From: a virus
DNA: 63,714 bases
IMG/VR virus record: IMGVR_UViG_3300025096_000015
Coordinates: 1 to 63,714 of that record
Reading direction: 5' to 3' (one strand)
Positions 4,964 through 63,582 of the stretch are shown piece after piece. The position numbers were made by a program, and so were the translations under genes. The number at the start of each line of letters is the position of its first letter. Positions within the stretch are counted from its first letter, which is position 1. The notes below the pieces were generated by a model. That model did not search any database and had not been told where the DNA came from. It saw only the letters and a program-made list of their open reading frames with translations.

Positions 4964-5877
4964 AAAGTATTTTTGGAAAGTTTCATCATTCTAATGATGA
5001 GCATTTATTTTATTGTCCAAAATGCAAACATCACAAACGCAAGTTTTCTATAAATTTAGATAAGAACGTTTATAAATGTTGGATTTGTGATTACTATGGC
5101 CGATCTATTCGTCGACTCATAAGAAAATATGGCGACTTCCGGGCTCTGCAAAAGTGGGATAAATTAAATGGACGAGAAGATGTAACAAAATTTGACGACA
5201 TATTCTCAGATAATATTGAAATTGAGCAAATACAAAGACTTGATTTGCCACAAGAATTTATATCTCTCGCAAACAAAGAACTTCCATTAACCACAGAGCC
5301 AGCTTTAAATTATTTAGAAAACAGGGGAATAATAAAAGGGGATATTATTCGATGGAAAATCGGTTGTTGTATGAATGGGAAATATAATAATAGAATAATT
5401 ATTCCTTCTTTTGATGAAGAAGGTTATGTGAATTATTTTGTTGCGAGAACGTTTAATGGGGCTTGGAAAAAATACTTAAATCCTCAAGCGTCAAAGGATA
5501 TAATATTTAATGAATTATATTTGGACTTTGATGAAGAGCTTATAATCGTTGAGGGTATCTTTGATGCAATAATTGCCGGCCCAAATGCTGTTCCAATTCT
5601 TGGTTCTACTTTGCGCGAGAATTCAAAGTTATTTCAGATGATTGTGAAAAACGATACACCGACTTATATTGGTTTAGATATTGATGCCGAGAATAAATCA
5701 AAGAAGATAATAAAGGACTTATTAAATTATGGGATCGAGGTCTATAAAATAGATACATCTGGTTATGATGATATTGGTTCAATGACAAAAGAAGAATTTT
5801 CTAAACGTAAAAATGAAGCGTCATTATACGATTCTAATGACTATTTATTATACGAAGCGATAGGAGAAATAAAATAA
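4936..5877 (+). CDS. DNA primase (zinc finger plus TOPRIM)
   Basis: This 313-residue DnaG-like primase would synthesise RNA primers for lagging-strand replication with the helicase at 50460. The N-terminus has a CHC2-type zinc ribbon: FYCPKCKHH, then VYKCWICDYYG. The TOPRIM domain begins near residue 200 with IIVEGIFDAIIAG (the metal-binding Glu), followed by YIGLDIDAENKSKK (the DxD pair). It is shorter than cellular DnaG and similar in size to T4 gp61. The start lies inside the RuvC-like gene, preceded by GGAG-like sequence. It ends in a TAATG overlap with the next small gene. Confidence 0.85.
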   Translation: MEGEKLQLLKSIFGKFHHSNDEHLFYCPKCKHHKRKFSINLDKNVYKCWICDYYGRSIRRLIRKYGDFRALQKWDKLNGREDVTKFDDIFSDNIEIEQIQRLDLPQEFISLANKELPLTTEPALNYLENRGIIKGDIIRWKIGCCMNGKYNNRIIIPSFDEEGYVNYFVARTFNGAWKKYLNPQASKDIIFNELYLDFDEELIIVEGIFDAIIAGPNAVPILGSTLRENSKLFQMIVKNDTPTYIGLDIDAENKSKKIIKDLLNYGIEVYKIDTSGYDDIGSMTKEEFSKRKNEASLYDSNDYLLYEAIGEIK

Positions 5878-6489: not shown

Positions 6490-9400
6490 ATGAAGTTCGC
6501 CCATCTTGCGGATACGCATATTCGCAACTTAAAATACCACTATGAATATCGTGCGATATTCGATCAAATATATGATAAACTACGAGAAGAGAAAGTTGAT
6601 TGTATTGTTCACTGCGGGGATCTAGCCCACACAAAGACTCAATTGAGTCCTGAATACTTTGAGATGGCATCAAACTTTCTCAAGAATTTAGCGGACATTG
6701 CACCCACTTATATCATACCAGGAAACCACGATGGGAACCTTAGAAACTCCAGTAGGCAGGATGCTATTACTCCAATCGTTGAGGCGCTAGAACACCCAAA
6801 TCTGTGCCTCCTGAAGGATTCTGGTGAGGTACAGTTGAGCAACGAGTTCACTTTAAATGTGCTTTCAGTTTTCGATGAAGACAATTGGGCTGCCCCGAGT
6901 GAAGAAAACAAAATTAATATCGCTCTTTATCATGGTTCTATTTCTGGAGTAAAGACAGATCTTGGTTGGACTATGGAACATGGTGAAAACGATGTATCAA
7001 TTTTTGATGAGTTTGATTTTGCCTTTCTTGGAGACATTCACAAGACAAATCAGATATTAGATCATGATGGAACAATTCGTTATCCTGGATCAACAATACA
7101 ACAAAATCATGGAGAGTCTAATGACAAAGGCCTGTTGATCTGGGACATTCGAGATCGTGATGATTTTGATGTTAAGCATGCTTCATTTGTAAATCCAAAA
7201 CCTTTTATCACAGTCAATCTTACTCCTAAAGGAAGAATTCCTAATAAAATAAATATTCCAGAAGGCGCACGTCTCCGTCTGGTTTCTAACAATAATCTTT
7301 CATTAGATGTGTTAAAGAAATCTGTTGACGTCGCAAAAGCTAGATTTAAGCCAGAAAGTGTGACTTTTTTAAATAGAGCTTCTGGAGATAGAACAGATAT
7401 CTCCGATTCAATTAATAATATATTTCAAGAAAACTTACGAGATTCAGCAGTCCAAAAGCGTCTTATTAAAGATTACTTGAAAGACTATGATCCTACAGAT
7501 GATATAATAGAAAACGTACTGGAACTTAATAAAAAATATAGTTCTGTTGTTGAAGAAGATGAAGAAGTAGCAAGAAACATCAATTGGAAACTCAAGAGTG
7601 TTGAATGGGATAATCTATTCAATTATGGTGAAAAGAATAAAATTAATTTTGAAAATTTAAATGGTGTTGTTGGTATCTTTGGAAAGAATTTTTCAGGCAA
7701 GTCAAGCATTATCGACAGCTTGTTATATACAGTTTACAATTCTACTTCAAAAAACAATCGTAAGAATCTTCATTTGATTAATCAAACAAAAGACGATTGC
7801 AGAGGGAAAGCAGAGATCGTTATTGGTCACAATGTTTATGAGATAGAAAGAACGTCAGAAAAATATGAAAAGAAACTTCATGGCAACACGACAATTGAAG
7901 CGAAAACAGATATTGAATTCTCTAGACATGATAAGGTTGTTGGAGAGAACATAAGTTTAAATGGCTTGTCTAGAAATGACACAGATAAAAACATAAGAAA
8001 GATGTTTGGAACAATTGATGATTTTCTTTTTACATCAATGGCTTCGCAGCTTGGTTCTCTTATGTTTATTAGTGAAGGGTCTACAAGAAGAAAAGAGATC
8101 CTTGCTAAATTCCTTGATTTGGAAATGTTTGAGCGCAAGTTTAAACTAGCGAAAGATGACGCTGCAGATCTGCGAGGAATGCTTAAAAGATTAGAAGGTA
8201 CAGAATTTGATGAGCAAATCGAAGAAGTCAATGAAAAGCTTGCTGGCGTTGAGAGCGAAATTAAGAAACAGGAAATTTCTTGCGAAGAGATAACAGAAAA
8301 AATGGATGTGTTTCAATCACAGGTTGATGATATCAATGAAAGGATAAATATTATTCCAGTTGAAATAATCAACATAGAAGAGATAGAAAGAAATTTAGAA
8401 AACAATAAGAAGGAAAAAGATCTATTAACTGGAAGAAACAAAAAGTTTTCTGACAATATTAAAAACAATAATGAGCTTTTAAATAAGATTCAGATTTTCT
8501 TAAATGAAGATTTTGACATCGAAGAGATTGAAAATAATAAATCAATTGTTGTTGAAAAGCAAAATCAATTAAATTTAATTTGCAACGATATTAAAGTTCA
8601 TGAAACTAAACTCAAAATTAAAGAAGGAAAGGCTGCTCTTTTGGGAGAGGTCCCATGTGGAGAAGAGTTTTCACATTGTAAATTTATCAAAGATGCTTAT
8701 GGCGCATTAAAACAGCTTGATGAAGTTAAAAAAGAAATCGATAACTTGAGAACTTCAGAAGTAAAAACATCTAATGAAATTAATGATCTGGATCCAAACA
8801 AGATTGAAGAGCATATTGAGAAACACAATAAGCTTCTTGAGAAGAAGAGTGAATTAAATTCTGAAAACTCTTCATACGAACTTGAGATCCAAAAAAACAA
8901 AACAAAAATTGTTGGATATAAGAAAGAAGCTGAACAACTAAATGAAAAAGTAGTAGAATATAATAAGAACAAGTTAGCAATTGAAAATCTAGAAGCATTA
9001 AACTTTGAGAAAGATAATTTTTTGAGAGCTATAGTAAAAGAAAAAGAAAATTTTTCAATATGTCAAAATCGTCTTATTGAACTTTCAAAAGAGCACGGCT
9101 CTATCGAACAAATGCTTAAAAATCTTGAAGATGACAAACAGGAACTTCACTCGCTCCGCGAAGAATTTGCTGCTTATGATTTGTTTATGAGATGCATGCA
9201 TTCGAATGGCATCGCTTATGATATTATCAAAAAGAGACTTCCGATCATTAATATAGAAGTAGCAAAGATCTTAGCAAACATTGTGGACTTTGAAATCTTC
9301 TTCGAAGCGGAAGACAAGAAACTTGAAATCTTTATCAAACATCCAAGATTTGATGCGAGACCAATTGAATTAGGTTCTGGCTCAGAAAAGACAATTGCTG

Positions 9401-9645
9401 CGATGGCAATACGATTGGCATTGTTAAATGTGTCAAGTTTGCCAAAGCCAGATCTATTTATATTAGATGAGCCAGCAACGGCTTTGGATGAAGAAAATAT
9501 GGAAGGGTTTATTAGAATCTTAGATATGGTTAAATCATATTTTAAAACTGTTCTTCTCATTTCCCATTTGGACACTCTAAAAGATTGTGCAGACATGACA
9601 ATTGAGATTGAGAAGAAAGGTAACTTTGCTTATGTTAATTATTAA
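6490..9645 (+). CDS. Fused Mre11/SbcD-Rad50/SbcC recombination nuclease (gp47-gp46 fusion)
   Basis: This single 1051-residue protein combines what T4 encodes as gp47 and gp46. Residues 1-340 are a metallophosphoesterase: LADTH (8-10), HCGDLAH (about 41-47), PGNHDG (77-82) and FLGDIHK. An SMC-like ATPase follows: Walker A GKNFSGKS near residue 398, long coiled coils, a possible hook with Cys723 and Cys730, signature LGSGSEK near 961, Walker B FILDEPATALDEE near 990 and H-loop LISHLD near 1023. The complex resects DNA ends for recombination-dependent replication and degrades host DNA. It has its own promoter, and a small gene follows closely. Confidence 0.9.
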   Translation: MKFAHLADTHIRNLKYHYEYRAIFDQIYDKLREEKVDCIVHCGDLAHTKTQLSPEYFEMASNFLKNLADIAPTYIIPGNHDGNLRNSSRQDAITPIVEALEHPNLCLLKDSGEVQLSNEFTLNVLSVFDEDNWAAPSEENKINIALYHGSISGVKTDLGWTMEHGENDVSIFDEFDFAFLGDIHKTNQILDHDGTIRYPGSTIQQNHGESNDKGLLIWDIRDRDDFDVKHASFVNPKPFITVNLTPKGRIPNKINIPEGARLRLVSNNNLSLDVLKKSVDVAKARFKPESVTFLNRASGDRTDISDSINNIFQENLRDSAVQKRLIKDYLKDYDPTDDIIENVLELNKKYSSVVEEDEEVARNINWKLKSVEWDNLFNYGEKNKINFENLNGVVGIFGKNFSGKSSIIDSLLYTVYNSTSKNNRKNLHLINQTKDDCRGKAEIVIGHNVYEIERTSEKYEKKLHGNTTIEAKTDIEFSRHDKVVGENISLNGLSRNDTDKNIRKMFGTIDDFLFTSMASQLGSLMFISEGSTRRKEILAKFLDLEMFERKFKLAKDDAADLRGMLKRLEGTEFDEQIEEVNEKLAGVESEIKKQEISCEEITEKMDVFQSQVDDINERINIIPVEIINIEEIERNLENNKKEKDLLTGRNKKFSDNIKNNNELLNKIQIFLNEDFDIEEIENNKSIVVEKQNQLNLICNDIKVHETKLKIKEGKAALLGEVPCGEEFSHCKFIKDAYGALKQLDEVKKEIDNLRTSEVKTSNEINDLDPNKIEEHIEKHNKLLEKKSELNSENSSYELEIQKNKTKIVGYKKEAEQLNEKVVEYNKNKLAIENLEALNFEKDNFLRAIVKEKENFSICQNRLIELSKEHGSIEQMLKNLEDDKQELHSLREEFAAYDLFMRCMHSNGIAYDIIKKRLPIINIEVAKILANIVDFEIFFEAEDKKLEIFIKHPRFDARPIELGSGSEKTIAAMAIRLALLNVSSLPKPDLFILDEPATALDEENMEGFIRILDMVKSYFKTVLLISHLDTLKDCADMTIEIEKKGNFAYVNY

Positions 9646-42118: not shown

Positions 42119-43570
42119 ATGGCAACGAAAGATTCTTTCAATAATAGGTTAAGATATGATTTATCTGGATACCCACCTAAGTTTGCCAACCCACTGGACA
42201 TGTGGTATGATAGAGTTCTATATGGTAAAGTTGATCAACAAGGTAATGTGGTTCATCCGAGTCGTGAAGCGATAAGGAACGGAATGAAGGTTGTACAACC
42301 GGTGGGTGCTTTTGCAGAATCAGCTTCAGATGTATTGTTAATAGATTTTGTAGCACACGCTTTTAAAAATTTTCAGGGAGCTTTTGTTAGAGCAGACGCT
42401 ACGGGCAAAACTATACGTTCTGGAGTTGTAAGACAGGCAATACAAAAGCCGGCTGGCGGTTATGTTGATGTCGATGTTTTATACAAGAGATATTCGCAGA
42501 GCATATACTCTACTTTTTCTGATATTTATCTTAAAACTTCTGTGAAGACTAGAATTGTTCAAAATTTTGATGACTATCTAAGATTATTTTTAGTTTTTGC
42601 TAGAGAATATGCTGCAGATCAACCTGTCACCAAAACATTTTTTATCAAACACAATATGTGTACTCCTTTAATTAGTGGCCTAATGGTGCAGCTCACAAAC
42701 AACAACCATGATGATGATTCCACTAGACAACTGTGGTTGAACGATCCAAATTTTGCACTTTTTGCCAATACTGCCAACCAGTATGGTTTCTTGATAAATA
42801 AAAATGCTCCATGGAGGCTAACAGCGAACATAGCATCTCCAAACATGGTGAAGAACTGGGTTATGTCAGTAAGGGAGAAACTAATTGTCTCCCCAGGCGC
42901 CGAGGTTCTAATGACCCAGTTGATTCCTGGCTGCATGGAAAAAGAGGAAACTTTTAAGGAATTTATCAATAGACCAAACAACATAATCATGCGAGATATC
43001 ATATTTCCTGAGACTTCAAGACATTTTTTCGAATCTTATTACACCAAGTCTTGTTTTAGTGATATTAACGAATTGAAAACCAACTTGGTTAATGGCTATA
43101 ATAGTTTTGTTGAAAAAAACCCAAGAGTGAGAATGGTTGATGCTAAAAAATGTCAATATGGACTAAAGGCTGATAAAATAACCCAAAAAATTGTGACCAG
43201 GGAACCGGTTGACATGTCAATCATCGATAAAAAATACGGTATGGATCACTGGCTAGAGGTTTACTTCAATATAAGATCGGTCGAAGAAAAAGTGTTTTTT
43301 AGATCACCAAAATTTATACGCATATTAAAAAGTGCTCAAAGAATTGCAAAAACAGTTGACAATTCCAGCGCAGTGATGTATATTAATAGAGCACTAAGAG
43401 GATTCCCAGAAACAAATTCAATCGTCATGACTAAACCCCGGGGCGAAGTGAATCCGAGAGAGCCAGATCTATCCAGAAGTTATTATGACTCGCCACAGGA
43501 GGCAGAGAAAGCTCATCACCAACGCCGCGAAAGAGAAAGAAAGGAAGCCTACAACGCTTCCGGAGATTAA
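42119..43570 (+). CDS. Virion structural protein, baseplate region
   Basis: This 483-residue protein starts MATKDSFNNRLRYDLSGYPP. It is alpha/beta with few repeats and no catalytic motif; segments include QPVTKTFFIKHNMCTPLISG and DKKYGMDHWLEVYFNIRSVE. The C-terminus is basic and charged (HHQRRERERKEAYNASGD). It starts 28 bases after the large baseplate gene and is the last virion gene of the block. A baseplate or tail role is inferred from position. Confidence 0.5.
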   Translation: MATKDSFNNRLRYDLSGYPPKFANPLDMWYDRVLYGKVDQQGNVVHPSREAIRNGMKVVQPVGAFAESASDVLLIDFVAHAFKNFQGAFVRADATGKTIRSGVVRQAIQKPAGGYVDVDVLYKRYSQSIYSTFSDIYLKTSVKTRIVQNFDDYLRLFLVFAREYAADQPVTKTFFIKHNMCTPLISGLMVQLTNNNHDDDSTRQLWLNDPNFALFANTANQYGFLINKNAPWRLTANIASPNMVKNWVMSVREKLIVSPGAEVLMTQLIPGCMEKEETFKEFINRPNNIIMRDIIFPETSRHFFESYYTKSCFSDINELKTNLVNGYNSFVEKNPRVRMVDAKKCQYGLKADKITQKIVTREPVDMSIIDKKYGMDHWLEVYFNIRSVEEKVFFRSPKFIRILKSAQRIAKTVDNSSAVMYINRALRGFPETNSIVMTKPRGEVNPREPDLSRSYYDSPQEAEKAHHQRRERERKEAYNASGD

Positions 43571-43582
43571 TCAGGTTAATTA

Positions 43583-44782
43583 ATGTTATTTCAGACATTG
43601 GACAGTAAACATGAATGCGTAGGAGTATATTATGACGGAGAACTTTATTTTGATCATGAGCTTCCTGACAGAGTTAGTGAAACATGGTCTTACGCATCTT
43701 TTCTCAGGGATAGAGAAGTTAGATACGGCCATTTGCAATGTGGTGGTAAGACTCTTGACGATGTTTGTCCCGACTCTTTAAAAGAAGACTGGGATAGTAT
43801 TAATAATAAATTAAAAGCATTTCTGAAATCTTTTCACTTTTCAAAAGTGTCCCTTGATGACAATTGTTTTTATGACTTGGTGCCGAAGAAGTTCTTACTT
43901 GAATTCTGTGAAATCAAAAACCGAATTACAAAGCACGTTTTCGAAAATTTTTTGCCGCCCAAAAATTTGAGATTTTTAACTTTATTATCAAGAGTAGTCG
44001 AGGATATAAATCAGCAAAAATTAAATATTGATATTGACGGATTTAAACCGCATCTCGCTGAATATAAAGCGAGACAATGGAGAAAGAAAATTCAAGGTAT
44101 TTCTCCTTATATAAAATATGATATTTTTGGTACCAAAACAGGAAGACTGACAACAAAGAAATATAGTTTTCCAATTCTCACCTTCCCGAAGAAATATCGG
44201 TCCATTCTCAAACCAAATAATGATATATTTGTTGAACTGGATTACAATGGAGCGGAGTTGAGAACTCTGATGGCGTTGTCAGACAAAAACCAGCCGACAA
44301 TGGATATTCATGAATGGAACAGAAGACATTTATCTAACAACAAGGTTATGTCTAGACAAGAAGTTAAAAATTCCATCTTTGCGTGGTTGTATAACTCGAA
44401 AAAACATCCAAATGAGACCGCACTAAGAAAGATGTTTGATAAGGATAAAGTCTTGAGTGAGTATTGGGATGGCGAGACTGTAAAAACCTGTTTCAATAGA
44501 GAGATACCAGCTGATAAGCATCATGCTCTGAACTATATTATCCAGAGCACATGTGCTGATCTTATTTTGCAAAAAATGATTAAAATTTATGATATACTAG
44601 ATGGTAGGAAATCAAATGTTGCTTTTTGCGTACATGATAGTATAGTTATTGATTTGCATTCAGAGGACAAACATTTAATGAAAGATATAATAAGTGAATT
44701 TTCGAATACGAGATTTGGAAAGTTTAAAACCAGTGTAAAGACTGGAAAAGACTTCGGGAACCTCGAGGAGCTTGTGATATAA
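43583..44782 (+). CDS. Short family A (PolI-like) DNA polymerase
   Basis: This 399-residue protein holds a palm-fingers polymerase core but no exonuclease domain. FGTKTGRLTTK and FPILTFPKKYRSIL precede motif A FVELDYNGAELRTL (about 216-229). Motif B is RQEVKNSIFAWLY with the R-x3-K-x3-F-x3-Y spacing of PolI. Motif C is FCVHDSIVID (350-353 VHDS), where the usual VHDE has Ser for Glu. The retained Asp pair suggests activity, but the E-to-S change is unusual. With DnaE and a flap nuclease in the same genome, gap filling or primer replacement is a likely job. It is TAATG-coupled to the tubulin-like gene. Confidence 0.8.
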   Translation: MLFQTLDSKHECVGVYYDGELYFDHELPDRVSETWSYASFLRDREVRYGHLQCGGKTLDDVCPDSLKEDWDSINNKLKAFLKSFHFSKVSLDDNCFYDLVPKKFLLEFCEIKNRITKHVFENFLPPKNLRFLTLLSRVVEDINQQKLNIDIDGFKPHLAEYKARQWRKKIQGISPYIKYDIFGTKTGRLTTKKYSFPILTFPKKYRSILKPNNDIFVELDYNGAELRTLMALSDKNQPTMDIHEWNRRHLSNNKVMSRQEVKNSIFAWLYNSKKHPNETALRKMFDKDKVLSEYWDGETVKTCFNREIPADKHHALNYIIQSTCADLILQKMIKIYDILDGRKSNVAFCVHDSIVIDLHSEDKHLMKDIISEFSNTRFGKFKTSVKTGKDFGNLEELVI

Positions 44783-45681
44783 TGGATACCGTTATTGGAT
44801 TAGGTCAGGCCGGATGTAATATTGCTGATGAGTTTGCGAAATACGGTCAGTACAAAATTTATAAAATTGACGCCGGCGACAACATCGAACGAGCAGATTG
44901 GTCATGGGCTTCATATGGAATTAGTGGAGAAATCAATGAAAATGAAGAAGGCGGTAAATATGAAATTCCTCGTTTAAATAGTCCGGAAGAATATGAAGAA
45001 AAATGTCCAGATATGAGAGCGACCTTTAGGGAACTCAAGGGAGAGGTACTTTTTGTTGTAGGAGGTTCTGGAGATATTTCTGGTGCCTCCTTAAGAGTTT
45101 TGGAGTACTTGAGCCACTGCGATATAAGCGTTTTATATATAAGGCCGGATCTAGAATTGCTTTCATTGAGTAAAAGTCAACATGAGTGGACTACATTTAA
45201 TATTTTACAAGAGTATGCCAGATCAGGAGTATTCAAGAGAATTTACCTCGTCAGCAATTCAGAAGTTGAAAAGCACTTAGGAGAGATACCAGTTATTGGG
45301 TATTATGATAAGTTGAACGAAATGATCGTTTCAACATTTCACATGGTTAACGTTTATAATCATAATAAAGCTGTAGCTTCTAATTTTTCAGACCCTGATA
45401 ATATCAATAGAATTTCTACGATTGGAATTGCCAACAGTGATGATGGCGAAAAGAAATTATTTTATTCACTTGACAAAGTAGAAGAATTAAGGTATTATTA
45501 TGCTATAAACAAAAAAAAATTAGAAGAAGAGGGAGACTTGTTCAAAAAGATCAGAGAGCAAATTAAAAGCGATATAAAAACCAGTTATGGAATATTCGCA
45601 ACGAGCTATGAACAGAATTATGTTTATACTGTCGCTCACACGTCAGAAATTCAACGACAAAAAAATGAAAAAAACACTTGA
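44782..45681 (+). CDS. Divergent FtsZ/tubulin-like protein
   Basis: This 299-residue protein starts with a nucleotide-loop pattern of the tubulin superfamily: TVIGLGQAGCNIADEF (compare GVGGAGNNAVN of FtsZ). A second strand and turn follow (YKIDAGDN), then VLFVVGGSGDISGASLRVLE (residues 89-108), which fits the tubulin signature loop GGGTGTG with changes. IYLVSNSEVEK near 158 is placed like the T6 loop, followed by a core helix. The signature is degenerate, so GTP binding is not certain. Tubulin relatives in jumbo phages (PhuZ) move or centre phage DNA. It lies between polymerase and ssDNA-binding genes. Confidence 0.6.
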   Translation: MDTVIGLGQAGCNIADEFAKYGQYKIYKIDAGDNIERADWSWASYGISGEINENEEGGKYEIPRLNSPEEYEEKCPDMRATFRELKGEVLFVVGGSGDISGASLRVLEYLSHCDISVLYIRPDLELLSLSKSQHEWTTFNILQEYARSGVFKRIYLVSNSEVEKHLGEIPVIGYYDKLNEMIVSTFHMVNVYNHNKAVASNFSDPDNINRISTIGIANSDDGEKKLFYSLDKVEELRYYYAINKKKLEEEGDLFKKIREQIKSDIKTSYGIFATSYEQNYVYTVAHTSEIQRQKNEKNT

Positions 45682-45706
45682 CAAATGAATTTAGTTGTGT
45701 TACTAT
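45678..45706 (+). promoter_or_regulatory. Consensus sigma70-type promoter (TTGACA-17-TACTAT)
   Basis: TTGACA at 45678 overlaps the stop codon of the tubulin-like gene; TACTAT lies at 45701 after 17 bases, with TTGTGT before it, as at 6435 and 58693. It should transcribe the ssDNA-binding gene and probably the isomerase and UvsX. Confidence 0.8.
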
Positions 45707-45764
45707 AAAGACAGCAGAATGAGAGATTAGTCATTCTGACTTTAACCCAAAAAGGAGAAATAAT

Positions 45765-46505
45765 ATGGGTATTGATATGGAAAAAATGCGCTCACGCCGC
45801 GCCGACCTCGACAATAGAAATGGCAATAATCGAGAGTCCTTTTGGAAGCCGCAAGATGGAGAAACGACGATTCGAATCGTTCCCACTCCTGATGGCGATC
45901 CTTTCAAGGATTATTGGTTCCACTATAATGTTGGTGTCAACTCAGGGTTCCTGAGTCCAAAGAAGAACTTTGGAGAAGACGATGCGCTTGATGCATTCGT
46001 TCGTAAACTCTATAAGGAGGGCACGGAGGACAGTATTAAGATGGCAAAGTCTCTGTCAGCTAGGCAACGCTTTTTTGCTCCCGTGGTAGTTCGCGGCGAG
46101 GAAGAAAAGGGCGTGCGTATTTGGGGCTTTGGCAAGATGGCTTACGAAAAGCTACTCAATCTTGTCCTTAATCCTGAATATGGCGACATTACAGATTCTG
46201 AAACTGGAACGGATCTTGTAATTCGCTACGGGAAGCCCGCAGGGGCATCCTTTCCTCAAACGGAGATTACTCCACGCCGGCGCCCTTCGCCGTTGTGCGA
46301 GGATGAAGCTCAATGTGCTGAATGGCTGGATACTATTCCGGACCTTAGTAAGCTCTTTGATCGTAAAACTCCGGAAGAAGTTGAAACCATTCTTGACGAA
46401 TATTTGTCGGGGAATGTCGATGATGCCTCTTCTGATAACGTAGAGAAGTATAATACTGAGTCAGGCGACTCGGTGGATAAAGCTTTTAGTGAGCTTCTTT
46501 CATAA
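45765..46505 (+). CDS. gp32: Single-stranded DNA-binding protein (gp32-like)
   Basis: This 246-residue protein coats ssDNA during replication and recombination. Its N-terminal part, ESFWKPQDGETTIRIVPTPD, DPFKDYWFHYNVG and ARQRFFAPVVVRGEEEKGVR, then IWGFGKMAYEKLLNLV, matches T4-type gp32. It ends in an acidic tail, used in gp32 to recruit partners. A Cys-rich zinc site as in T4 gp32 is not evident. Codon use is GC-richer than neighbours, as in the capsid gene, fitting high expression. AAAGGAGA precedes the ATG. Confidence 0.85.
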   Translation: MGIDMEKMRSRRADLDNRNGNNRESFWKPQDGETTIRIVPTPDGDPFKDYWFHYNVGVNSGFLSPKKNFGEDDALDAFVRKLYKEGTEDSIKMAKSLSARQRFFAPVVVRGEEEKGVRIWGFGKMAYEKLLNLVLNPEYGDITDSETGTDLVIRYGKPAGASFPQTEITPRRRPSPLCEDEAQCAEWLDTIPDLSKLFDRKTPEEVETILDEYLSGNVDDASSDNVEKYNTESGDSVDKAFSELLS

Positions 46506-46523
46506 ATCTCTCTCACCCGCAGG

Positions 46524-46547
46524 GAGGCACGGGGTTACAGGTGCCTC
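46524..46547 (+). other. Hairpin between ssDNA-binding and isomerase genes
   Basis: A perfect 7-bp stem, GAGGCAC/GTGCCTC, encloses a 10-base loop (GGGGTTACAG). No T run follows, so it is not a standard terminator. It may be an RNA stabiliser, processing site or attenuator between a highly and a weakly expressed gene. Confidence 0.6.
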
Positions 46548-46574
46548 AAATTTAACAAAAAGGGGTGAATTATA

Positions 46575-47075
46575 ATGAGTAAGAAAAAAAGTAAGAAAAA
46601 AGTAAAGGAAAAGGTAGAAAGCGTAAAGGTACAAAGTGGTCAACTTGTAAATGTGCATTACGTTGGAACGTTTGAGGACGGTACTGAATTTGACAGTTCT
46701 CGTGAACGAGAAGAATCTATTTCTGTTCAAGTTGGTTCTGGTAATCTTATTGCCGGCTTTGATGCGGCTTTACATGGTATGACCATCGGAGAAGTCAAAA
46801 AAGTTACATTGGAGCCTTCAGAGGCTTATGGAGAAGTAGACCCAGAGTTTGTTCAATCAGTCCCTCTTCAATCATTTCCTCCAGATTTTGATTTTAAGGA
46901 AGGAGCGATGGTTCAAGGTCAGAACCCCGATGGAAATTCGGTGACTGCTAGGATTGATTCCGTTAGTGATGATTCTGTTGTACTGAACTTTAATCATCCG
47001 TTGGCAGGGAAGAAGTTGAATTTTGAAATTGAACTTTTGAGTGTCGAAGATCAAGTCGCAGAGCAAGAGGAGTAA
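46575..47075 (+). CDS. SlyD-like FKBP-type peptidyl-prolyl isomerase
   Basis: This 166-residue protein has a Lys-rich start, then a SlyD/FKBP domain: VNVHYVGTFEDGTEFDSS, VQVGSGNLIAGFDAALHGMT and GEVKKVTLEPSEAYGEVDPE. An insert-in-flap region follows (FVQSVPLQSFPPDF, VTARIDSVSDDSVVLNFNHP), then LAGKKLNFEIELLSV. Prolyl isomerisation and chaperone activity are expected. It lacks the His/Cys-rich metal tail of cellular SlyD and ends in an acidic one. Its place between ssDNA-binding protein and UvsX suggests it helps these or other phage proteins fold. AAAGGGG precedes the ATG. Confidence 0.85.
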   Translation: MSKKKSKKKVKEKVESVKVQSGQLVNVHYVGTFEDGTEFDSSREREESISVQVGSGNLIAGFDAALHGMTIGEVKKVTLEPSEAYGEVDPEFVQSVPLQSFPPDFDFKEGAMVQGQNPDGNSVTARIDSVSDDSVVLNFNHPLAGKKLNFEIELLSVEDQVAEQEE

Positions 47076-47086
47076 AAGATTTAATT

Positions 47087-48202
47087 ATGGCGAGAAAAGC
47101 TAAAACTAAAGCAGGAAAACTTTCCATGTCAGACATGCGAAATCTTATTAATAGAAAGGCTGGCATGTCTGTTGCACATGATTTAACAAGTGCTAATCCA
47201 ACCGAGGTAAAAGATTGGATTCCAACAGGCTCTCGCTGGTTGGACTCAATTGTTTGTCGCGGGAAATTAACTGGCATACCAGTAGGTAAGGTTGTTGAAA
47301 TTGCTGGTTTAGAATCAACTGGCAAGTCTTATATGGCTGCTCAGATTGCCGCCAATGCTCAGAACATGGGCATTGATGTAATCTATTTTGATTCTGAGTC
47401 TGCGATTGATCCAACTTTTCTGGAGCGCACAGGCTGTAATCTGGAAAACTTGCTTTATATTCAAGCACAGAGTGTAGAGTTCGTACTTGAGACAATTGAG
47501 GATCTTCTCGCCAATAATGAAAATCGTATGCTCTTTATTTGGGACAGTCTTGCTCTGACCCCATCTGTTAGTGATGTTGAAGGCGATTTCAATCCTCTCT
47601 CTTCAATGGCTGTAAAAGCCAGAATACTCGCCAAAGGCATGTCCAAATTGACTGTTCCCATAGCGAACAGCCAATCGACATTTCTCGTTCTTAATCAACT
47701 TAAGACAAACATCACTAGAAGCCCTTCTGAAGCAATGGTAGAGCCTTATATGACGCCTGGTGGAAAAGCTATGATATACGCATATTCTTTACGCGTATGG
47801 CTTACAGGAAGAAAAGCAAAGGCTAGCTATGTGCTAGACGAAAGAGGGTTTAGGGTGGGGTCAGAGGTCAAGGCTACTCTCAAAAAGAGTCGCTTTGGCA
47901 CCCAAGGTAGACAAGCAAGTTTTAAAATTTTATGGGGAGATAATATTGGTGTTCAGGATGAAGAGAGTTGGTTCGAAGCAATCAAAGGTTCAGAACACCT
48001 CAAGCAGAGCGGAGCATGGTATTCGCTACAGTATAAAGATGGCACAGAAGAAAAGTTTCAGCCATCAAAATGGAAAAATATGTTGACAAATAAGAAATTT
48101 CGTGATAGAGTGTTAGATATAATGGATGAAGAAGTTATCTTAAAGTTCGACAAACGACAAGGCGAAGCATCGGACTTTTATGATATTGAACAAGAAGAGT
48201 AA
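47087..48202 (+). CDS. uvsX: UvsX/RecA-like recombinase
   Basis: This 371-residue strand-exchange ATPase has Walker A GLESTGKS (74-81), a catalytic Glu segment YFDSESAIDPTF, Walker B MLFIWDSLA (about 148-156), DNA-binding-loop region LNQLKTNITRSPSEAMVEPY and TPGGKAMIYAYSLRVWLT. Length is close to T4 UvsX (391). It pairs with the resection nuclease at 6490 and the ssDNA-binding protein to run recombination-dependent replication. Starts 11 bases after the isomerase; the same operon is likely. Confidence 0.9.
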   Translation: MARKAKTKAGKLSMSDMRNLINRKAGMSVAHDLTSANPTEVKDWIPTGSRWLDSIVCRGKLTGIPVGKVVEIAGLESTGKSYMAAQIAANAQNMGIDVIYFDSESAIDPTFLERTGCNLENLLYIQAQSVEFVLETIEDLLANNENRMLFIWDSLALTPSVSDVEGDFNPLSSMAVKARILAKGMSKLTVPIANSQSTFLVLNQLKTNITRSPSEAMVEPYMTPGGKAMIYAYSLRVWLTGRKAKASYVLDERGFRVGSEVKATLKKSRFGTQGRQASFKILWGDNIGVQDEESWFEAIKGSEHLKQSGAWYSLQYKDGTEEKFQPSKWKNMLTNKKFRDRVLDIMDEEVILKFDKRQGEASDFYDIEQEE

Positions 48203-55324: not shown

Positions 55325-56383
55325 ATGAATGAAGCTACATATTTAAAAAAATTAGTATATGATCCCAATTGGGACAAGAAAAACGTTGAAATTGTCAGTC
55401 TAGATGACATTGTGGCAGGACCACATCAAGTCAATAATGCTGCGAGAGCAAATGGTTTAAATCCGTTTAAACTTGAACAACTTATGTACGAAATTGAAAC
55501 CGATGGTCAATTGGTTCCAGTTAGCGCAAGTAAACTCAGAAATGGGAAGTGGGAATTAAATGATGGTGGCCACAGGTTTAGGGCACTAACGGATCTCAGA
55601 CTTCAGCATCCAAAAAACAAGAAGTATAGCACTATTCGGCTAATTGCGGAGAGTCACCCCAGCGCAGAAGAACGTAATCTTCGTATGCTCAACGACAACC
55701 GAAGATACACATCTAATGAGGCGACGGATGATGATGTGATCTTTCTTATCCATCGTAACATTGCAGATTTAAAAGCTCTTGGAACGGATATCGATGCGAT
55801 AACGATAGAAAAAGTGAGAGAATACGTGAAAGAAAATATTTTCCCTACACCTCATGGAAACAAGGTAAACAGCTTGTCCAGAAAGGTTTATGCAAAACTT
55901 GATAATCCATCTTCAAAGTTTATTGCTCCAGTGAATGATAAGGAAACAATGGATCAGTTTAATGACAACAATCCATGGGGTATGCAATTGCCAACTTCAG
56001 GTCTAAATGATAAAGGCAAATATAATTGGGGTTCTGTTGTCGATGATGACAAAGGCCAATCTTGGGCTGTCTATAATTGTAATCAAGAAACGTGGGTGCG
56101 ACAAAATGTTTCGCATTACTCACTGAAAAAGAAGTTACAACGCGACTGCCCCAAAATTTTAGTTATTGCCTATAACAACAATCTTCGCGCAGGTGATTCG
56201 GATGAATGTCCGGTGCAAAGCTATCGAAAAAACGTTCAAAAACACAAAGATTATTGGAACAGCCATCGTCTGATCACTGAACCACTTATTGACAGGTTGG
56301 TGTTTTTGCCACAAGTGGTAACGGGTCCGAACAAAGAAGATATGCGTCACCTGTACACAGCTAAAGGCAAGAAAATTGTATAA
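55325..56383 (+). CDS. ParB/Srx-like nuclease-domain protein
   Basis: This 352-residue protein has an N-terminal ParB-type domain: EIVSLDDIVAGPHQVNN, ETDGQLVPVSASKLRNGKWE and LNDGGHRFRALTDLRL (GGHR at 81-84). The remaining 230 residues carry no recognisable motif. ParB-fold domains in phages act as DNA-binding or nicking proteins, CTP switches or modification enzymes. There is no ParA or helix-turn-helix visible, so partition is unlikely. AAAAGGAG precedes the ATG. It heads a group with a Rossmann-like and a nucleotidyltransferase-like gene. Confidence 0.7.
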   Translation: MNEATYLKKLVYDPNWDKKNVEIVSLDDIVAGPHQVNNAARANGLNPFKLEQLMYEIETDGQLVPVSASKLRNGKWELNDGGHRFRALTDLRLQHPKNKKYSTIRLIAESHPSAEERNLRMLNDNRRYTSNEATDDDVIFLIHRNIADLKALGTDIDAITIEKVREYVKENIFPTPHGNKVNSLSRKVYAKLDNPSSKFIAPVNDKETMDQFNDNNPWGMQLPTSGLNDKGKYNWGSVVDDDKGQSWAVYNCNQETWVRQNVSHYSLKKKLQRDCPKILVIAYNNNLRAGDSDECPVQSYRKNVQKHKDYWNSHRLITEPLIDRLVFLPQVVTGPNKEDMRHLYTAKGKKIV

Positions 56384-59021: not shown

Positions 59022-62000
59022 ATGGCTAAAATTCCATTTGTTGGATTACACGCCCACAGCGGCTTAAGTTTGAATGATGGTCTGGGATACCCGCAAGATC
59101 ACATGGATTTCGCTTATGAGAACGACGGAAACGCCCTTGCATTGACCGATCATGGTCACATGAACGGGTTGCCTTATCAAGTGCTTCATGCGCGCAAAAT
59201 GCAGGCTAGTGGGAAGAATTTCAAGCCAATCTTCGGCGTCGAAGCTTACTTCAATCCATCTTTAGGACAATGGAGAGAAGAATACGAAAAAGCAAAACAA
59301 GAAAAGAAAAAAGGAATCAAGAACGAAATTGAACTATCTATTGAAGATGAGAGGGCTTCAAAACAGAAAGTTGTAGATATACTCAAAAAGAGAAATCACC
59401 TCATTCTGATCGCGCAGAATCAAGCAGGTTTGAATAATATATTTAAACTTGTGTCGGAGAGCTATAAAGATGAAAACTTTTATCGTTACCCTAGAATTGA
59501 TTATAAGCTTCTTGATCTATATGGTGACGGAATTATTGCCTCTAGTGCTTGTCTTGGCGGTGTTTATGCTGGTGATTATTGGGATTTTCGCGACCTTGGT
59601 AGTGACGCTATTTTAAAAGCTATGCGCCAAACTACAGAGCGCATGAAAAACATATTTGGAGACAGATGGTATGGAGAACTCCAATGGAATAACATTCCAG
59701 AGCAGCATGAACTTAATCAATACATCATCCAGATCTGTCGTGAGTATGATGTAAAATTAATCTCTACAGCTGATAGTCACTATCCTAATCCTGACGCTTG
59801 GAAGGACAGGGAACTATATAAAAGGATCGGATGGTTGGGTAAAGGTGGCTTGCCAGACTATATGTCTTCTGAACTTCCTTCTGGCGTTGAGGAGGTTGGA
59901 TACGAGTTATATCCAAAGAATGGCGATCAGATGTGGGAATCATATCATAACTATTCTAAGTTGGTTGGTTTTGATTACGATGATGATCTTGTGTTGGACT
60001 CAATCAAAAGGACAGAATATATTGCTCACGACTTGATAGAAGATTTCATGCCCGATAATGAAGTTAGACTTCCAAGTTTCGTTGTTCCTGCTGGTAAAAC
60101 AGATATTCAGGCTTTGACACAAGATTGTCTCGAGGGTCTAAAAGAAAAAGATCTTAACAATAAAGATGAATATGTTGACAGGCTTAAAGAAGAACTCTTC
60201 GTTATTCGTGACCGAGGGTTTGCCAAGTACTTCTTAACAATGAAAGCTATTGCAGATAAAGCATCCTCAGTTCAGTTAACAGGGCCAGGCAGAGGCTCGG
60301 CAGCTGGCTCTCTTGTTGCTTACGTTTTAGATATCACACAGGTTGATCCAATTAGACACGGACTTCTGTTTTCAAGGTTTTTGCGTAAAGACGCAACGGA
60401 CTATCCTGATATTGATTATGACGTGAGTGACCCGATGGAAGTGAAGGAGATGTTGATCGAGGAATGGGGCGCTGACACAGTTGCGCCTATTTCAAATTAT
60501 AATACTCTTCAGCTGCGCTCTCTAATCAAAGACGTATCAAAGTTTTATGATGTTCCTTTTGTTGAGGTCAATAACGTAACTGGCAAAATGATCTTCGAAG
60601 CAACTCCGATTGCCAAGAAAGTTCATGGGATCAAATCAGGAGTGTACGCCCCAACTTTTGAAGAAGTAATGGAATACTCAGAGACTTTGAAGAAGTTTCT
60701 TAATAAGTATCCCCATATCAAGACTCACATTGAGGCTCTTCTAGGGCAGGTTAGGAGCGTCTCCAGGCATGCAGGCGGTGTTGTTGTAGGCGAGAACCTA
60801 GACAAGTGGATGCCGCTCGTTAATAGCGGTGGTGTGAGGCAGACTCCTTGGTCAGAGGGTCAGAACGTAAGACATCTTGAACCTCTCGGCTTCATTAAGT
60901 TTGATATTCTTGGACTGGCTTCTTTAAGAATGATCGAAGGATCAATCCGACATGTTCTTAAAAGGCATCACGGCATCGAGGAGCCAACATTCGAGGATGT
61001 GAAGAAATTCTATAATGAGAAGCTGCACCCTGATGTTATAAATTTTAATGACCAGAATGTCTATAAGAATGTTTTCCAGAAAGGTAAGTGGACAGGTATA
61101 TTCCAATTCACAGAACAGGGAGCACAGGAATTTTGTAAGAAGGCAAAGCCAAAAAACTTGATTGATATTTCTGCTATCACTTCAATCTATCGCCCAGGTC
61201 CACTCGGTGCAGATGTAGATAAGTCTTACGTAGATGCAAAGCGAGATCCTGGAAGCGTGAATTATGTTCACAAGCTTGTAAAGGATGTGACAAAAGAAAC
61301 TTATGGATTTCTTATCTTTCAGGAGCAAATCGCTTTGCTGGCTCACAAACTTGGCAAAAACATTTCCCTTGATGAAGGTAACGCTCTGCGAAAGTATTTG
61401 ACAAAGAAAGGAACTGGAGATGAATCAAAGAAGAAAGAGAAGATTTATAATAAATTCGTTGAAGGCTGTATAGAAAAGAAGTTATCAATGTCGCAGGCTG
61501 ATCAACTTTGGCAGACATTTGAATACTTTTCTGGCTATGGCTTCAACAAATCCCACGCAGTAAGTTATAGTATTCTTAGCTTTCAGTGCGCATGGTTACT
61601 GAATTATTATCCTGTAGAGTGGACTGCCGCTTTCCTCGACAAAGAACCCGAAAGCAGAAAAGAAAAAGCAATTAACATTGCTAAGTCAATGGGGTTTAAG
61701 ATTCAACCACTTAATATAAATTCTTCAGGGACAGTTTGGGAAATTACTGAAGATGGTAAGACTCTCATTCAGCCACTGACTTCCGTTAAAGGCTTAGGGG
61801 ATAAAGCTATTGAACAGATCACGCAGCATCGCCCGTTTAATACTATTGAAGAATTATTGTTTAATGAAGATATCATTTATAGTAAGTTAAACAAGAAAGC
61901 TTTGGACGTTCTTGTACGGAGTGGAGCGGTTGAAGGTCTGATAGATGACAGGTTTTCTGGAGTGAAACACTTTTGGTCCGCTGCTGTTGTTGATCGTCCA

Positions 62001-62429
62001 AAAAAGGAAAAACAATTACACGACAATATTGAACTTTACAGACCAGAAGGAGACTTCACAGTTGAAGAAAAGATTGCTAACAAAGCGAATTTGACTGGTG
62101 TTTTCCCAATTGATCTTGTACTAACTGAGCGTGTGAAAAGCAAACTCGAAGAATATTTTGTTCCACCGATTGCTGAATATGACCCAGAGCTTCAGGTTGT
62201 CTGGTTTATCCCGAGAGAAATCATAAGAAGAAAAACAAAAAACGGCAAAGAATATTGGATTGTCAATGTAATCGATTCAACAAGTAACCAAACTACAATT
62301 AGATGTTGGGGAGTTCGAGAAAAAGACATAATCCATGTTAATCGACCTTACATGTGTAAAATTGATTACAACGAACAATGGGGATTTTCTTCTAGATCTG
62401 TAAGGCATAATTGGAGGCTATTAGGATGA
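59022..62429 (+). CDS. dnaE: DNA polymerase III alpha subunit (DnaE-type, family C)
   Basis: This 1135-residue replicative polymerase has a PHP domain at the N-terminus (VGLHAHSGLSLNDGLGYP, ALALTDHGHMNG, FKPIFGVEAYF), then the polymerase core with GPGRGSAAGSLVAYVLDIT and FRKDATDYPDIDYDVSDPME-like catalytic acids (PDIDYD at about 463-468). It continues with RHAGGVVVGENLD, SIYRPGPLGAD, IFQEQIALLAHKLG and GYGFNKSHAVSYS. A helix-hairpin-helix region (GLGDKAIEQITQHRPF) and an OB-like end follow. T4 relatives normally have family B (gp43) instead. Proofreading is not obvious unless PHP provides it. Confidence 0.93.
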   Translation: MAKIPFVGLHAHSGLSLNDGLGYPQDHMDFAYENDGNALALTDHGHMNGLPYQVLHARKMQASGKNFKPIFGVEAYFNPSLGQWREEYEKAKQEKKKGIKNEIELSIEDERASKQKVVDILKKRNHLILIAQNQAGLNNIFKLVSESYKDENFYRYPRIDYKLLDLYGDGIIASSACLGGVYAGDYWDFRDLGSDAILKAMRQTTERMKNIFGDRWYGELQWNNIPEQHELNQYIIQICREYDVKLISTADSHYPNPDAWKDRELYKRIGWLGKGGLPDYMSSELPSGVEEVGYELYPKNGDQMWESYHNYSKLVGFDYDDDLVLDSIKRTEYIAHDLIEDFMPDNEVRLPSFVVPAGKTDIQALTQDCLEGLKEKDLNNKDEYVDRLKEELFVIRDRGFAKYFLTMKAIADKASSVQLTGPGRGSAAGSLVAYVLDITQVDPIRHGLLFSRFLRKDATDYPDIDYDVSDPMEVKEMLIEEWGADTVAPISNYNTLQLRSLIKDVSKFYDVPFVEVNNVTGKMIFEATPIAKKVHGIKSGVYAPTFEEVMEYSETLKKFLNKYPHIKTHIEALLGQVRSVSRHAGGVVVGENLDKWMPLVNSGGVRQTPWSEGQNVRHLEPLGFIKFDILGLASLRMIEGSIRHVLKRHHGIEEPTFEDVKKFYNEKLHPDVINFNDQNVYKNVFQKGKWTGIFQFTEQGAQEFCKKAKPKNLIDISAITSIYRPGPLGADVDKSYVDAKRDPGSVNYVHKLVKDVTKETYGFLIFQEQIALLAHKLGKNISLDEGNALRKYLTKKGTGDESKKKEKIYNKFVEGCIEKKLSMSQADQLWQTFEYFSGYGFNKSHAVSYSILSFQCAWLLNYYPVEWTAAFLDKEPESRKEKAINIAKSMGFKIQPLNINSSGTVWEITEDGKTLIQPLTSVKGLGDKAIEQITQHRPFNTIEELLFNEDIIYSKLNKKALDVLVRSGAVEGLIDDRFSGVKHFWSAAVVDRPKKEKQLHDNIELYRPEGDFTVEEKIANKANLTGVFPIDLVLTERVKSKLEEYFVPPIAEYDPELQVVWFIPREIIRRKTKNGKEYWIVNVIDSTSNQTTIRCWGVREKDIIHVNRPYMCKIDYNEQWGFSSRSVRHNWRLLG

Positions 62430-62878
62430 AAAAAATATGCAGTAAATGCAAAGTAAAACAACAAACAACTGAGTTTTACAAAAAAAGTGGTAGAGGAGGC
62501 GGTCTAACCTCCCAGTGTAGGACTTGTATCCTTGCAAATCTTGCTCGATACCACGCAAAAATAATAGAAAATGTGATTTATATGGTGGTTTGTCCAAAAG
62601 GTGAATTTTATATTGGTTCGACTAAGCAAGGCATACTTAGATTAAAAGAACATTTTAAAACCCGCGAATCTAACACGAAGGGCAAAACTCTGGCACAATT
62701 TCTTAAAAAAAATAATTATAAAAGAAAAGATATAGAATGGAAAGTTCTCGAAAAGTTCCCGCCAGGTCAAGAGAAGAAAATGAGAGCGAGAGAATGCGAA
62801 GTCATCAAAGAACATATCGACAATCCTCTGTGTATAAATAAAGAAAACACGTTGTATAGCGGGGAATGGGCAGATTGA
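62426..62878 (+). CDS. GIY-YIG endonuclease with N-terminal zinc finger
   Basis: The protein is 150 residues from the ATGA overlapping the polymerase stop, with GGAGG at 9 bases. The N-terminal finger is CSKCKVKQQTTEFYKKSGRG ... CRTC. The catalytic domain starts VIYMVVCPKGEFYIGSTKQG, with RLKEHF after it, matching the GIY-YIG fold (Tyr pair, Gly, then His). Such genes are free-standing homing endonucleases in T4-like phages, often placed beside DNA polymerase. No intron is visible. Confidence 0.75.
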   Translation: MKKICSKCKVKQQTTEFYKKSGRGGGLTSQCRTCILANLARYHAKIIENVIYMVVCPKGEFYIGSTKQGILRLKEHFKTRESNTKGKTLAQFLKKNNYKRKDIEWKVLEKFPPGQEKKMRARECEVIKEHIDNPLCINKENTLYSGEWAD

Positions 62879-63582
62879 AGACTTGGATTTTTGATGTAGA
62901 TGCAACACTGACTCCTCCTAGAGATAAAATAGACAATGACTTCGAGGAGTTCTTTTATAATTGGATATTAGATAACGACACTTACTTGTGTTCAGGAAGC
63001 GACATCGACAAACTAAAAGAACAGTTGACACCCAGAATTCTCAACAATGTCAAAGGTGTGTTTACATGCATGGCAAATGCCTATTATGAAGGTGGAGAGG
63101 AAATATATAGAAAAGACTTCGAACCACCAGTGGGTTTAGAAGAAGACTTAAAATACTTTTTGTTCTCTTCGCTCTATGAGAACAGAACAGGAAACCACAT
63201 TGAAAAGAGAATTGGCATATGGAATTTTTCTATTGTTGGCAGGAATGCGGATAAGGAAGAAAGAGAGCACTTTAAAAATTGGGACAAAGAACATGGCTCA
63301 AGAAAAACAATCTCTTCATATTTGAACAGCAGATACAGAGACACAGTTGAGACAAGCATTGGCGGTGATATCTCAATTGACATATGCAATTTAGAACGAG
63401 ACAAGAGACAAGTGGTCGAACATTTGTCTGATTTAGATTTTTCAAATATTGTTTTTATTGGTGATAGGATTTACCCTGGCGGCAATGACTATGCACTGGC
63501 AAAAGCTGTTGAAAAGCGAGGCGGAAAATCTATAAATGTAGATGGCTGGGAAGAAACGAGAAATATTTTATTAAAAACTTGA
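62866..63582 (+). CDS. HAD-family protein related to eukaryotic-type phosphomannomutase
   Basis: This 238-residue protein has WIFDVDATLTPPRD (nucleophile Asp10, Asp12), SIVGRNADKEEREHFKNW (substrate arginine segment), SIGGDISIDICNLERDKRQV and IVFIGDRIYPGGNDYALAKA. This series is that of alpha-PMM (PMM2-like HAD) enzymes, where GGQISFDV and GDKTMPGGND are matching features. It could interconvert sugar phosphates for glycosylation, but mutase and phosphatase cannot be told apart. Start is ATG 62866 or TTG 62875, which overlaps the previous stop. Confidence 0.75.
   Translation: MGRLKTWIFDVDATLTPPRDKIDNDFEEFFYNWILDNDTYLCSGSDIDKLKEQLTPRILNNVKGVFTCMANAYYEGGEEIYRKDFEPPVGLEEDLKYFLFSSLYENRTGNHIEKRIGIWNFSIVGRNADKEEREHFKNWDKEHGSRKTISSYLNSRYRDTVETSIGGDISIDICNLERDKRQVVEHLSDLDFSNIVFIGDRIYPGGNDYALAKAVEKRGGKSINVDGWEETRNILLKT

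Follow-up and report, generated by a model that had tools for sequence, protein, structure and literature searches.

We analyzed a 63,714-nucleotide stretch of viral DNA (positions 1 to 63,714 of IMG/VR record IMGVR_UViG_3300025096_000015; hereafter, the window), in which the gene for a 299-amino-acid protein, here called Z1, directly follows that for a small family-A DNA polymerase. Our best explanation, which we hold tentatively, is that Z1 is a tubulin-fold protein without a conventional GTPase and that its dedicated partner is the polymerase encoded next to it.

Z1 is a conserved gene of uncultured T4-like phages

The Z1 gene, translated from ATG, occupies positions 44,782–45,681 on the plus strand. 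This open reading frame is not a product of chance, because Z1 has at least 551 homologues in IMG/VR (alignment-based search) and 17 columns are invariant in an alignment of 48 Z1 sequences. When the window protein alone served as the query, 78 loci were matched directly. Through a 203-kb contig, we reached a divergent subfamily, Z1b, comprising 44 loci with about 32% identity to the window protein. Exactly one Z1 gene was present per contig in all long Z1 contigs (15 out of 15), and Z1 is a single-copy, strongly conserved gene of a large clade of uncultured T4-like phages.

The window represents part of a T4-like myovirus genome and encodes a terminase, portal, major head protein, sheath and baseplate hub, together with a primase, UvsX, a DnaB-type helicase and RNR. 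It also carries a separate gene for DNA polymerase III alpha (59,022–62,429, plus strand), with PHP, alpha NTPase, finger and HHH domains; this enzyme, which is present with its PHP domain in 11 of the 15 long Z1 relatives, is probably the main replicase. Elsewhere in the window, a 1,051-amino-acid open reading frame (6,490–9,645) appears to be an SbcD–SbcC fusion, being SbcD-like over residues 1–366 and SbcC-like over residues 287–1,051. Positions 55,325–56,383 encode a ParB-like protein (phrog_4715, E = 1.1e-5), and positions 62,866–63,582 match a Pfam family named "eukaryotic phosphomannomutase" (E = 2.5e-28).

No Z1 homologue was detected among 50,697 annotated phage records, whether the E value was relaxed to 10 or more distant members were used as queries; Rhodothermus phage RM378, tested as a relation, also had none. 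Searches of Pfam, NCBIfam, PHROGs and PDB sequences with the Z1 family gave nothing above the cut-offs, and NCBIfam had no match to the window protein, in agreement with the preliminary description of this DNA, made from the sequence alone, which had suggested a new, divergent branch of its superfamily. The PHROGs family phrog_24038, a short family of unknown function, matched Z1 with an E value of 7e-5. Weak matches to DUF7522, TrkA_N and Lycopene_cycl were dismissed as Rossmann-loop or chance similarities. A PADLOC search for defense genes returned no match for the window protein, and a Cas6b match to a divergent Z1 relative (E = 0.0026) was judged to be due to chance.

Among 84,980 species genomes, the sole match was in a WOR-3 metagenome-assembled genome (CP070664.1, 2,241,228–2,262,046). 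We rejected this match as evidence for a host or prophage: it is a 5-kb phage piece flanked by runs of N within bacterial genes. The piece consists of polymerase, Z1, ssb and uvsX genes and is likely a viral contig mis-scaffolded into the chromosome record.

Z1 has a predicted tubulin fold

The AlphaFold2 model of the window protein, built with 48 homologues, had a pLDDT of 89.1 and a pTM of 0.87. Its elements follow the order S1-H1-S2-...-S4-H4-S5-H5-S6-H6-H7, and then comes a second domain. A Foldseek search of the PDB with this model returned TubZ, FtsZ, CetZ or tubulin structures as all of the best 50 matches, with TM-scores (query) of 0.59–0.68; the top single match was TubZ 4ei7_B, which had the best E value (2.3e-12). 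Among the viral models in BFVD, a phage FtsZ was the best match, and PhuZ was also among the top matches. A separate AlphaFold2 model of a Z1b protein had a pLDDT of 92 and a pTM of 0.90, and its best 50 PDB matches were all FtsZ or TubZ (E values down to 1.3e-13). For both models, the TM-scores (query) lay mostly between 0.6 and 0.7. A Rossmann-like N-terminal domain, a central helix H7 and a second alpha/beta domain were present in both of these divergent models. The models thus support a two-domain tubulin/FtsZ fold with a central helix H7. The preliminary description had assigned Z1 to the tubulin/FtsZ superfamily and proposed structure prediction, a structure search and profile comparison as checks; the two independent models and their Foldseek matches back that assignment.

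Sequence similarity alone barely places Z1 in the superfamily. The identity between Z1 and FtsZ is 10–15%, and the Pfam Tubulin profile (PF00091) scored only 12.2 bits over 17 positions, short of its gathering cut-off of 33, but pairwise hhalign of Z1 with FtsZ (E = 0.01) put T4, T6 and H7 in register. In addition, FtsZ and Z2, a second tubulin-like protein considered below, ranked higher in hhalign against Z1 than did seven decoy families taken from these phages. Similarity this weak would also be expected of an unrelated Rossmann-type protein resembling tubulins in architecture alone. We regard such an origin as highly improbable: in two separate models, both domains and H7 match only tubulins among the best 50, and the Z1 loops are in register with those of FtsZ and, more weakly, with those of Z2.

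The GTPase loops of Z1 are degenerate

In FtsZ, the T4 loop reads GGGTGTG and the T7 loop NxDFAD; T4, the T7 acids and helix H8 serve tubulins in phosphate binding and in activating the hydrolysis of GTP by the neighboring subunit. We examined the equivalent positions in 198 Z1 sequences. The T1 equivalent, GLGQAGCNIAD (residues 6–16; 44,797–44,829, plus strand), was recognized by its conservation: G6 and G8 are near invariant, and G11 and C12 are retained except in the divergent subfamily. The T4 equivalent, GGSGDISGASL (residues 94–104; 45,061–45,093, plus strand), was located by its in-register alignment to FtsZ and by conservation. Its main-family pattern, G-[SAC]-G-x-[IV]-S-[GA], fits neither the GGGTGTG signature nor the SAG variant, and the aligned stretch (residues 95–101) is two residues shorter than that of FtsZ. 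In Z1b, the loop reads GSS[MFYL]SSNYxL, and therefore the phosphate-binding glycines are gone in that subfamily. All three stretches singled out in the preliminary description were found where it had put them (GLGQAGCNIAD at residues 6–16, GGSGDISGAS at 94–103 and SNSEVEK at 158–164). It was right that the T4 signature is altered, but its mention of an Asp-Ile replacement understated the change, as family members show a much stronger degeneration of this loop.

The position of T7 and H8 corresponds to residues 194–210 (45,361–45,411, plus strand), as judged from the AlphaFold2 models and from conservation, with R210 conserved. No acidic column exceeds 65% within residues 193–213, and in neither model is there a helix between H7 and S7. 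As far as alignments and models can tell, Z1 is without the conventional GTPase machinery: T4 is eroded, and the T7 acids and H8 are lost. These same features do not support the earlier designation of Z1 as a cytoskeletal GTPase.

By contrast with these losses, the guanine side of the pocket appears to be kept. N159 (45,256–45,258, plus strand), which aligns with the guanine-contacting Asn of the FtsZ T6 loop, and N179 are each conserved at 97%, position 175 (Y175 in the window protein) is mostly aromatic, and T6 and H7 are in register with FtsZ; from their positions, we infer that N159, N179 and Y175 retain their role. Helix H7 (residues 174–193; 45,301–45,360, plus strand), defined by predicted secondary structure and conservation, carries Y175 and N179 on the base side, along with an invariant H187 and a near-invariant N190. 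The motif QEYARS (residues 143–148; 45,208–45,225, plus strand), identified by conservation, closes helix H5 and contains Q143, R147 and S148, which are identical in 198 out of 198 sequences. The newly invariant residues of Z1 are thus Y24, Q143, R147, S148 and H187, with N190 and R210 near invariant. Reasoning from topology, most of them should face the T7 side.

Z1 is closely tied to the polymerase gene

The polymerase gene (43,583–44,782, plus strand; 399 amino acids) matches Pfam DNA_pol_A with an E value of 8.6e-15 and overlaps the start of the Z1 gene by a single base. Downstream of Z1, after a gap of 83 nt, lies the gene for a single-stranded DNA-binding protein (ssb; 45,765–46,505, plus strand; phrog_1192, E = 7.5e-26). 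These two matches confirm the location between polymerase and single-stranded DNA-binding genes that the preliminary description had given. The polymerase has no exonuclease domain, and its motifs A (D220), B (R258, K262, F266 and Y270) and C (H351 and D352) are conserved in 148 relatives.

This arrangement is widespread. In a first set of loci, the next recognized upstream gene was the polymerase in 126 out of 128 loci with room for one, and ssb lay downstream in 132 out of 132 loci with room. In a larger set, the polymerase was located no more than 400 nt upstream of Z1 in 156 out of 175 loci, and ssb was downstream in 190 out of 190 loci with room. The commonest spacings between polymerase and Z1 were –1, –4 and –13 nt, which suggests translational coupling. 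We searched for polymerase–Z1 fusions and found none.

A sigma70-type promoter sequence (TTGACA-17-TACTAT; 45,678–45,706, plus strand) is located directly after Z1 and ahead of ssb. Promoter scores of at least 10 out of 12 were obtained for 61 out of 116 homologous Z1–ssb intergenic regions, compared with 4% of shuffles. This conserved promoter indicates that ssb opens a new transcription unit and that the polymerase–Z1 pair closes the previous one. Promoter-like sites were also enriched immediately 5' of the polymerase gene; the T4 late-promoter motif TATAAATA showed no enrichment.

Pairwise distances between Z1 proteins correlated with those between polymerases (r = 0.80) more strongly than did distances for polymerase and ssb (0.71) or for ssb and uvsX (0.60), a Z1–polymerase correlation that linkage and shared inheritance alone can produce. 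The preliminary description had proposed that Z1 organizes phage DNA or a replication center. This proposal is supported only in part: Z1 is very strongly tied to the replication genes, but the polymerase shows the closest tie, and this points to a partner within the replisome no less than to a cytoskeletal element.

The main rival to the polymerase-partner reading is a non-hydrolyzing filament. Z1 would then be a true cytoskeletal phage tubulin, akin to PhuZ or TubZ, that binds GTP, hydrolyzes it very slowly or not at all and forms static filaments positioning or organizing the replicating DNA. We consider this unlikely, even though the predicted fold with both domains and H7, the kept guanine-side Asn pair, Tyr and T1 glycines, and the surrounding replication genes would all accord with it. 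Catalytically dead PhuZ D190A still polymerizes when given GTP and shows greater stability (PMC4244570); therefore, loss of the T7 acids does not by itself exclude filaments. However, T4 is eroded in Z1 and lost in the divergent subfamily, and the T7/H8 segment of the longitudinal interface is missing. An FtsZ of Nitrosopumilus that is without both the GTP-binding and T7 motifs did not polymerize even when GGGTGTG was restored (PMC3684127). Furthermore, no adaptor gene or iteron array was seen near Z1: the adjoining genes are polymerase and ssb, neither identified as a DNA-binding adaptor, and no iteron array was found at positions 43,500–47,100. On the basis of these neighboring genes and the missing iterons, we rejected a TubZRC partition system as the identity of the locus, although an adaptor might be encoded farther away.

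Comparison with known tubulin-fold proteins

Z1 shares with FtsZ the predicted two-domain fold (TM-score up to about 0.7), the central H7, the T6 Asn position and the T1 glycines. Unlike FtsZ, it has GGGTGTG replaced, NxDFAD and H8 missing, and neither a linker nor a C-terminal tail, and it is phage encoded, beside a polymerase. PhuZ of phiKZ-like phages is likewise phage encoded and compact with a tubulin fold, as the BFVD matches indicate, but it is an active, spindle-forming GTPase, whereas the Z1 phages are T4-like. We rejected identity with PhuZ: hhalign to phiKZ gp39 gave an E value of 0.092 out of register, and the TM-score was only about 0.5. TubZ, known from type III partition systems of plasmids and some phages, provides the top PDB fold match (4ei7_B), but the catalytic loops are absent from Z1. 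The Nitrosopumilus protein (Nmar_1262; PMC3684127) resembles Z1 in being degenerate, having lost the GTP-binding motif (which reads AGKAGSA) and the T7 motif; it is a cellular archaeal protein, and we take its degeneration as a parallel only.

Some relatives encode a second tubulin, and others have no Z1

Z2 is encoded elsewhere in the genome in 2 of the 15 long Z1 contigs, G061 and G064. G061 is a 165-kb contig with a Z1 74% identical to that of the window and a Z2 about 80 kb from Z1. Unlike Z1, Z2 keeps T4 (GGGGGTGS) and, as its T7-like pair, an invariant FDSKD; it aligns with FtsZ over its full length (hhalign probability 97.9, E = 6.6e-13). It has at least 107 relatives in IMG/VR and is absent from the phage record collection. 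Examples lie on the minus strand at positions 5,390–6,481 of L261 (IMG/VR contig of L003, 165,872 b) and 5,308–6,345 of L262; in L261, a gene that looks sigma-factor-like by eye adjoins Z2. The hhalign match between Z1 and Z2 is weak (E = 0.068), covering residues 4–204 with T1, T4 and T6 in order, and Z1 may be a degenerate relative of a Z2-like protein.

Z1 could also be a pseudo-tubulin regulator that caps or modulates the phage Z2 or inhibits the FtsZ of the host, thereby blocking cell division. Such a role would suit the phages of G061 and G064, which encode an intact Z2, and Z1 is co-encoded in 6 out of 20 Z2 contigs. We find it improbable, however: Z2 was not seen in 13 of the 15 long Z1 contigs (several are 150–190 kb, though possibly incomplete), Z1 is linked to the polymerase and not to the distant Z2, and the face of Z1 that would contact a tubulin neighbor is altered.

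In Z2 contigs without Z1, other genes fill the interval between polymerase and ssb, including one for a protein of about 180 amino acids. Five of eight such contigs (L345–L352) have a protein of 282–296 amino acids there; the four that we read through are DnaQ-like by eye, with a DEDDh pattern (VIDVETTGL...HNASFD...DVDATL). PF00929 matched two of the interval proteins from Z1-less contigs and had no match in the window. In two of the eight, the interval holds a protein judged by eye to be HD-domain-like. These sister phages retain a related small polymerase; Z1 is therefore not a constant requirement of this polymerase type.

That a DEDDh 3'–5' exonuclease occupies the Z1 slot in several sister phages, with no PF00929 match in the window, raises the question of whether Z1 is a new enzyme on the tubulin fold, acting for instance on nucleotides or DNA ends, with Q143, R147, S148, H187, N190 and R210 as its active site. 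The residues of this cluster are polar, and virtually every Z1 member has the same ones. By contrast, Z1 has no known catalytic or metal-binding motif, few of its invariant residues are acidic, and the slot is variable, as the HD-domain-like proteins illustrate. We therefore judge an enzymatic role quite improbable.

A proposed role for Z1

A polymerase partner is favored by the near-fixed adjacency of polymerase and Z1, the distance correlation of 0.80, the placement of ssb in a separate transcription unit and the intact polymerase motifs. Against it stand the failure to find a polymerase–Z1 fusion, the related small polymerases of sister phages without Z1, and the guanine-side residues and T1 glycines, which are kept, so that GTP-dependent assembly may still occur. 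As a partner, Z1 could, for instance, be an accessory subunit or a tether that keeps the polymerase at a site of replication or recombination, and translational coupling would match its synthesis to that of the polymerase. Y24, Q143, R147–S148, H187, N190 and R210 would form a partner-binding or otherwise new functional face at the usual place of T7, and Z1 might still bind a nucleotide, for a structural or sensing purpose.

Proteins of unrelated folds are known as polymerase accessory factors: thioredoxin serves the T7 polymerase, and the accessory factor of mitochondrial polymerase gamma has an aminoacyl-tRNA-synthetase fold. Mechanistically, a partner role would thus be nothing unusual, although for tubulin it would be a new one. 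To our knowledge, no tubulin fold has a polymerase-subunit role. In the open-licence literature that we searched, phage tubulins are assigned to the PhuZ or the TubZ type, and no degenerate tubulin beside a phage polymerase was found. A bolder version, about which we are more doubtful, is that a member of the tubulin superfamily has become non-cytoskeletal and an obligate subunit of a viral DNA polymerase, with a second, catalytically intact tubulin persisting in some of these viruses.

Implications

The known phage tubulins, PhuZ and TubZ, form filaments that use GTP to move DNA. In the very abundant group of uncultured phages described here, a conserved tubulin fold at the replication locus appears to have lost its GTPase apparatus and to be tied to a polymerase. 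Because some relatives encode an intact Z2, it becomes possible to test how an active tubulin and an inactive one co-evolve within a single virus. If our reading is correct, the tubulin fold would have been reused inside the replication machinery, Z1 would offer a naturally occurring example with which to ask what in that fold matters beyond GTP hydrolysis, and it would be a marker gene for a large clade missing from isolate collections.
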